In this document: positions 26,989-27,041 of the stretch, piece after piece
Layout: the number at the start of each line of letters is the position of its first letter
Numbering within the stretch: position 1 is the stretch's first letter
NCBI GenBank assembly: GCA_938034415.1
Contig: CALHLE010000009.1
Span: 100,601 to 164,600 of the forward strand
DNA: 64,000 nucleotides
Direction of reading: 5' to 3'
Origin: an uncultured Anaerolineae bacterium
GTDB lineage: Bacteria; Chloroflexota; Anaerolineae; J036; Brachytrichaceae
Made by a program: the position numbers and the translations under genes
The notes under the pieces: model-generated
Database searches by the model: none
Told to the model about the DNA's origin: nothing
The model's input: only the letters and a program-made list of their open reading frames with translations

Positions 26989-27041
26989 AAAGTGTCACCA
27001 GGACGTGACGTTCCGAATCGGGAACGTCACGTCCTCACTTT
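26989..27041 (+). promoter_or_regulatory. Large hairpin in the glnA leader
   Basis: Perfect 15-bp arms (AGGACGTGACGTTCC / GGAACGTCACGTCCT) around a 6-base loop, extended below a 5-base bulge (TCACC) by AAAGTG/CACTTT. It sits between the promoter and the ribosome site (AAGGAG at 27046). It ends in TTTT, so it could be an attenuator, an mRNA-stability element, or a palindromic protein operator. Confidence 0.75.

Follow-up and report, generated by a model that had tools for sequence, protein, structure and literature searches.

The window analyzed here is a 64,000-nt stretch on contig 9 of an Anaerolineae-type genome, and the element under study lies in it between a sigma-70-type promoter and glnA, the gene for a glutamine synthetase (GS; Table 1). 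The promoter matched 11 of 12 consensus positions (TTGACG at 26945 to 26950, TATAAT at 26968 to 26973, spacer of 17 bp), and the ATG of glnA is at 27064. Identity of the window GlnA to its counterparts in genomes of the same family was 75 to 96%, and named relatives with 90 to 96% identical glnA included Ca. Roseilinea mizusawaensis and a Thermoflexales MAG. Window-type GlnA was ∼76% identical to proteins of Acidobacteriota and Eremiobacterota (L040 to L112) versus ∼35% identical to the GS of other Anaerolineae, an identity pattern that suggests horizontal transfer of glnA. Divergent from glnA is a pyrB remnant on the minus strand (26504 to 26921), already called dead in the first-pass annotation and confirmed as a pseudogene by comparison with an intact 313-aa gene (L004): residues 2 to 116 (with two stops) and 281 to 313 are kept, whereas the middle has been lost. 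A search of the genome gave no further pyrB, just a 30% relative on contig 63.

Table 1. Features of the glnA upstream region, numbered by position in the window.
Feature	Position	Strand	Basis
Sigma-70-type promoter of glnA, TTGACG-17-TATAAT	26945..26973	+	read from sequence
glnA leader, ~84 nt	26980..27063	+	start site inferred from −10 box
Outer 6-bp extension AAAGTG/CACTTT flanking P2	26989..27041	+	not conserved in relatives
P1, putative antiterminator, GTCAC-[CAGGAC]-GTGAC	26994..27009	+	covariation; G4 of hexaloop at 27002
P2, 15-bp terminator stem-loop	27000..27035	+	covariation; mutually exclusive with P1 over 27000-27009
U-containing tail CACTTTT of terminator	27036..27042	+	read from sequence
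Ribosome-binding site AAGGAG	27046..27051	+	read from sequence
glnA, glutamine synthetase, 476 aa	27064..28494	+	PF00120 and PF03951

On direct reading, the promoter and leader, the TTTT run and the 15+6-bp hairpin were all at the positions annotated at first pass. The 15-bp stem is formed by AGGACGTGACGTTCC (27000 to 27014) with GGAACGTCACGTCCT (27021 to 27035) around the loop GAATCG (27015 to 27020); outside it AAAGTG (26989 to 26994) pairs with CACTTT (27036 to 27041), leaving TCACC (26995 to 26999) unpaired in between, and TTTT occupies 27039 to 27042, 5′ of AAGGAG. Folding of the RNA from 26975 to 27070 gave −39 kcal/mol, compared with −23.0 ± 3.3 kcal/mol for 200 shuffles (z = −4.8), none of which was as good. 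Searches with the GlnA protein covered 79 genomes of the class and 28 of the family (the relatives of Ca. Roseilinea within the Anaerolineae), and leaders were aligned from family members whose start of glnA was readable, together with one more close relative (19 leaders: L003 to L018, L021, L039 and L113). The element preceded glnA in every family genome whose glnA start was readable. The first-pass annotation had made its reading depend on the stem being present in close relatives; 19 of 19 leaders compared kept the 15-bp stem as well as the “bulge” upstream of it, and on this comparative ground the hairpin is not a chance structure. The outer 6-bp pairing did not share this conservation: among the short glnA leaders read, it was clear only in the window and in L011 (AAGAT/ATCTT).

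Across the 19 leaders, 97.1% of P2 cells were paired; 11 of the 15 pairs carried two-sided changes, and G-U wobbles were among the stem changes. Two-sided changes occupied 34 cells in this alignment, against 9.7 in shuffles; sliding the partners abolished the signal, and RNAalifold recovered the stem without guidance. In the window the stem-loop is G+C-rich, as in intrinsic terminators, and is followed by a tail (CACUUUUCC) with four U, among the weakest of a set in which relatives have four to nine; the tract is shifted by three bases, which may limit the efficiency of termination here, and a simple terminator scan did not flag the site. As judged from covariation and the tail, P2 with its U-rich tract is a probable intrinsic terminator, conserved as RNA across the family.

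The TCACC “bulge” is present as annotated, but a better reading assigns it to the 5′ side of P1, a competing hairpin the 3′ arm of which sits inside the 5′ arm of the terminator, such that P1 and full P2 cannot coexist. In the same 19 leaders, 97.9% of P1 cells were paired and three of five pairs showed two-sided changes (compensated variants ATCAC/GTGAT in L008; CCAC/GTGG in L012, L014 and L021; TCGC/GCGA in L113). When six leaders of a second GS type (see below) were included, all 25 leaders had a YNNGAN loop with a C-G closing pair; C1 and G6 of the L135 and L143 loops could pair further. The inner three pairs were kept throughout this larger alignment and the outer two were lost in genus g7, where P1 is 3 bp with a stability of its own of 0.0 kcal/mol. 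Folding of the growing RNA gave P1 as the minimum-energy structure at 30 to 46 nt and P2 from ∼54 nt, the layout of an antiterminator/terminator switch. The alignments thus show a covarying predicted terminator and a covarying, competing hexaloop hairpin conserved before glnA. Among the alternatives raised at first pass, an attenuator or structured RNA is the one favored, since both of the mutually exclusive stems covary and the U-rich tract is conserved, and the element is very probably a glnA transcription attenuator operating by competition between P1 and P2.

A covariance model of the element was used to search the genomes of the family and the phylum. Members were found in 23 of 28 family genomes, and the genome of the window held one copy only, before glnA, by DNA, pattern and covariance searches alike. 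A minus-strand match at the same glnA was the palindrome itself rather than a second copy, and a pattern match on contig 36 (L115) was rejected because the covariance model gave it no support. The phylum-wide covariance search (400 genomes) turned up no genuine member beyond the family; its matches L144 and L145, and L142 from within the family, proved on reading to be plain terminators or chance matches. No Rfam family matched the element in a scan that included the known glutamine riboswitches. Almost every family leader has TATAAT 5′ of the element, at a distance that varied from 18 to 47 bases, while the overlap of P1 with the terminator was constant, and the element was retained in L005 and L006 despite unrelated sequence upstream of glnA. 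The attenuator occurs on the Chloroflexota side only: the element was not found in those leaders of Acidobacteriota glnA orthologues (∼76% identity, L040 onward) that were read.

In the sister genera g7 and g8, the same element also precedes another GS gene (protein start MSEKL, ∼31 to 37% identical), with a TTGACGAAA...TATAAT promoter of its own and a longer leader, and in one genome (G015) it precedes both GS genes. Among the other GS paralogues of the family (29 loci), one more member was found (L152); a match at L150 was rejected since it resembles coding sequence. Neither element nor promoter-leader was found at the second GS gene of G020 (L146, G020:C104), which closely trails an upstream gene. 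Presence before two divergent GS genes indicates that the element tracks glutamine synthetase rather than a single inherited locus. Reading by eye further identified an extra outer helix around P1, P2 and the U-run in leaders of the second type (L134, L136, L138 and L152; for example, GCAACGC/GGCGTTGC in L138 and CGCAGT/ACTGCG in L136), which can form only in read-through RNA.

The closest described systems are the targets of ANTAR proteins, which carry hexaloops with A1 and G4, two per target, overlapping terminators before nitrogen genes that include glutamine synthetase (PMC3369931, PMC3369936). In the crystal structure of EutV with RNA, G4 is contacted through its base and A1 is not, and the backbone is contacted at the last three stem pairs; the minimal ANTAR motif was redefined as a single hexaloop, though EutV antitermination is reported to require two (PMC8934654). 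The family element keeps the features contacted in that structure (hexaloop, G4 and three closing pairs). Like the ANTAR-target leaders of eutP, eutG, eutS and eutA in Enterococcus, nasF in Klebsiella and amiE in Pseudomonas (PMC3369931), it has a C-G-closed hexaloop with G4, a 3′ arm overlapping the 5′ arm of a terminator, a position upstream of a nitrogen gene and a REC-ANTAR protein in the genome. Unlike them, short family leaders have one hexaloop hairpin rather than two, a C or U (C in the window) replaces the A of loop position 1 in 25 of 25 leaders, position 5 is A throughout and the ANTAR gene is unlinked. A search of the short leaders, that of the window included, found no second G4 hexaloop; one was present upstream in 6 of 13 longer family leaders (shuffled mean 0.42; 0 of 1,000 shuffles), as CACGAC in L018, CGGGAG in L017, CTTGAC in L136, AACGCT in L135, ACGGCT in L143 and GATGCC in L152, with a linker of 7 in L018 and 10 in L135 and a longer distance in the other four. 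Since both A1 and the second hairpin are missing from the window copy, it was classed as a reduced variant and not as a canonical ANTAR-target RNA. ANTAR-linked GS leaders of other phyla share its target function and protein family but not its single-hexaloop architecture, which is not described in the reports on them (PMC3369931, PMC3369936), and a literature search found no report of such a leader from Chloroflexota. The cyanobacterial glutamine riboswitches (Rfam glnA and Downstream-peptide) likewise place glutamine synthetase under RNA control, yet none matched near the element, a far smaller structure that lacks a multi-helix junction. BglG/LicT (CAT-RAT) antiterminators resemble it in pairing a mutually exclusive antiterminator and terminator and differ in having a stem with two asymmetric internal loops, sugar genes as targets and no hexaloop (PMC3369936).

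Exactly one ANTAR protein was encoded in 26 of 28 family genomes; G011 has the element and gave no ANTAR match. The single protein of the window genome (ANTAR match at G000:C29:42108-42263) is a REC-ANTAR protein of 193 aa, the best full-length PDB matches of which were Rv1626, a “putative antiterminator”, and 6wsh, which we take from its residue numbering to be EutV. It keeps the residues with which EutV contacts G4 (R142, K149, E160 and Y164). The family protein has Arg in place of Met172, which is essential in EutV, and is also changed at N173 and R177; the Met172-to-Arg change as the cause of C1 loops was not supported, as C1 loops occur with Met172 too. The ANTAR gene was not linked to glnA in the window genome or elsewhere in the family. 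ANTAR proteins were found in 108 of 150 genomes of the class, so their co-occurrence with the element is by itself weak evidence.

In seven genomes (G032, G477, G035, G465, G489, G054 and G467) from four other Anaerolineae families, an ANTAR gene immediately precedes glnA in the same orientation, and in G035 it follows a histidine-kinase-like gene. A kinase is encoded beside ANTAR at L025. In family f9, leaders from three genomes lacking ANTAR (L231, L235 and L236) had no terminator, and the ANTAR-bearing G035 had one. A scripted scan of the glnA leaders of other families found a terminator overlapped by a hairpin with a C-NNGA hexaloop in L223, L224, L225, L237 and L245, three of which are close relatives, leaving independent cases in three families; as a control, such a loop occurred at 1 of 62 terminator-like sites of the window, under thresholds slightly different from those of the leader scan. 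Loops with A1 were seen by eye in further glnA leaders of the class (AAAGAC and AATGAC in L230 and L227; AGTGCG and AGTGTG in L188 and L193). The f24 glnA leaders L228, L229 and L232 have a different antiterminator, in which CAATGAG/CTCATTG overlaps a GAGGC...GCCTC terminator; G465 and G489 have the ANTAR gene alongside.

The ANTAR protein is the likely trans-acting factor of the glnA attenuator. A switch of the same anatomy with a different sensor, whether another RNA-binding protein or a small ligand acting on P1, is unlikely, even if it would accommodate a loop without A1, the usual lack of a second hairpin, the divergence of the family ANTAR protein at EutV-essential residues and the separation of its gene from glnA. 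Against it stand the Rfam result, glutamine riboswitches included, the very small size of P1 for an aptamer (16 nt; in g7, 3 bp plus the loop) and the absence from 28 of 28 family genomes of CsrA, which has similar-looking hexaloop sites, whereas the second G4 hexaloops of long leaders and the ANTAR-glnA adjacency in sister families favor ANTAR. A CsrA site as such had been considered: CAGGAC resembles the CsrA loop (ARGGAU), and the candidate was dropped with CsrA found in 0 of 28 family genomes by a search that gave matches in control genomes. Leader-peptide attenuation was likewise rejected; a GTG within the hairpin shares the glnA reading frame in the window but not in L007, and Gln codons are lacking.

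It is decidedly improbable that the hairpin is a constitutive 5′-UTR stem-loop, a stabilizer of the mRNA or a site of fixed partial termination with no regulated switch. The poor U-tract of the window and its failure to be flagged as a terminator would suit such a structure, but it leaves unexplained both the conserved, covarying P1, which sets an unchanging YNNGAN loop in the 5′ arm, and the independent presence of the element before the second GS type. The palindromic operator offered as an option at first pass, here taken as a DNA site at roughly +15 to +30 that binds a repressor or activator, has very little probability: TCAC-N6-GTGA is a dyad, placed just past the promoter as would fit a repressor, but the suggestion is disfavored because the distance to the −10 box varies while the P2 overlap is fixed, and because the covariation of the terminator stem is that of an RNA, with G-U pairs that a DNA dyad would not favor. 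The inner loop is, moreover, conserved yet asymmetric, and the left half-site is gone in g7. That the element once served both genes, as a relic of a regulatory region shared by pyrB and glnA, is close to inconceivable; the divergent pyrB remnant prompts the idea, but the element lies within the glnA transcript only and persists in leaders with unrelated upstream sequence, leaving the claim unsupported.

Taken together, ANTAR control of the glnA leader is strongly suggested, and on balance we favor an ANTAR-like attenuator of glnA in a reduced, single-hexaloop variant, to which the protein is presumed to bind. The leader would be made from the glnA promoter, and P1, with its hexaloop CAGGAC, would fold first on the nascent RNA; the far stronger P2 would then capture the 3′ arm of P1 and, with the U-rich tail, cause termination before glnA. 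A nitrogen-responsive kinase would phosphorylate the single REC-ANTAR response regulator of the genome, which could then bind the hexaloop via G4, hold P1 and block P2. Binding is accordingly predicted, with reasonable confidence, to give read-through into glnA rather than termination. More tentatively, with the odds slightly against it, this may be a natural case of ANTAR attenuation through one hexaloop with a pyrimidine at position 1, recognized by a lineage of ANTAR proteins whose loop-contacting surface has been rebuilt (Met172 to Arg, with neighboring changes). The dual-hexaloop ancestor would still be visible in the sister genera.

If that is true, one hexaloop would be enough for antitermination in vivo, as opposed to the requirement for two in the EutV work. 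As far as the literature search shows, the reduced one-loop ANTAR-type form has no earlier report from Chloroflexota. The family offers a natural series of dual and single hexaloops, A1 and C1 loops, short and long leaders and two divergent GS genes, against which the structural proposal of 2022, with one hexaloop as the minimal target of ANTAR, can be tested. For the organisms themselves, the conserved leaders indicate that glutamine synthetase in this mostly uncultivated branch of the Chloroflexota is controlled after the start of transcription, by an RNA switch.
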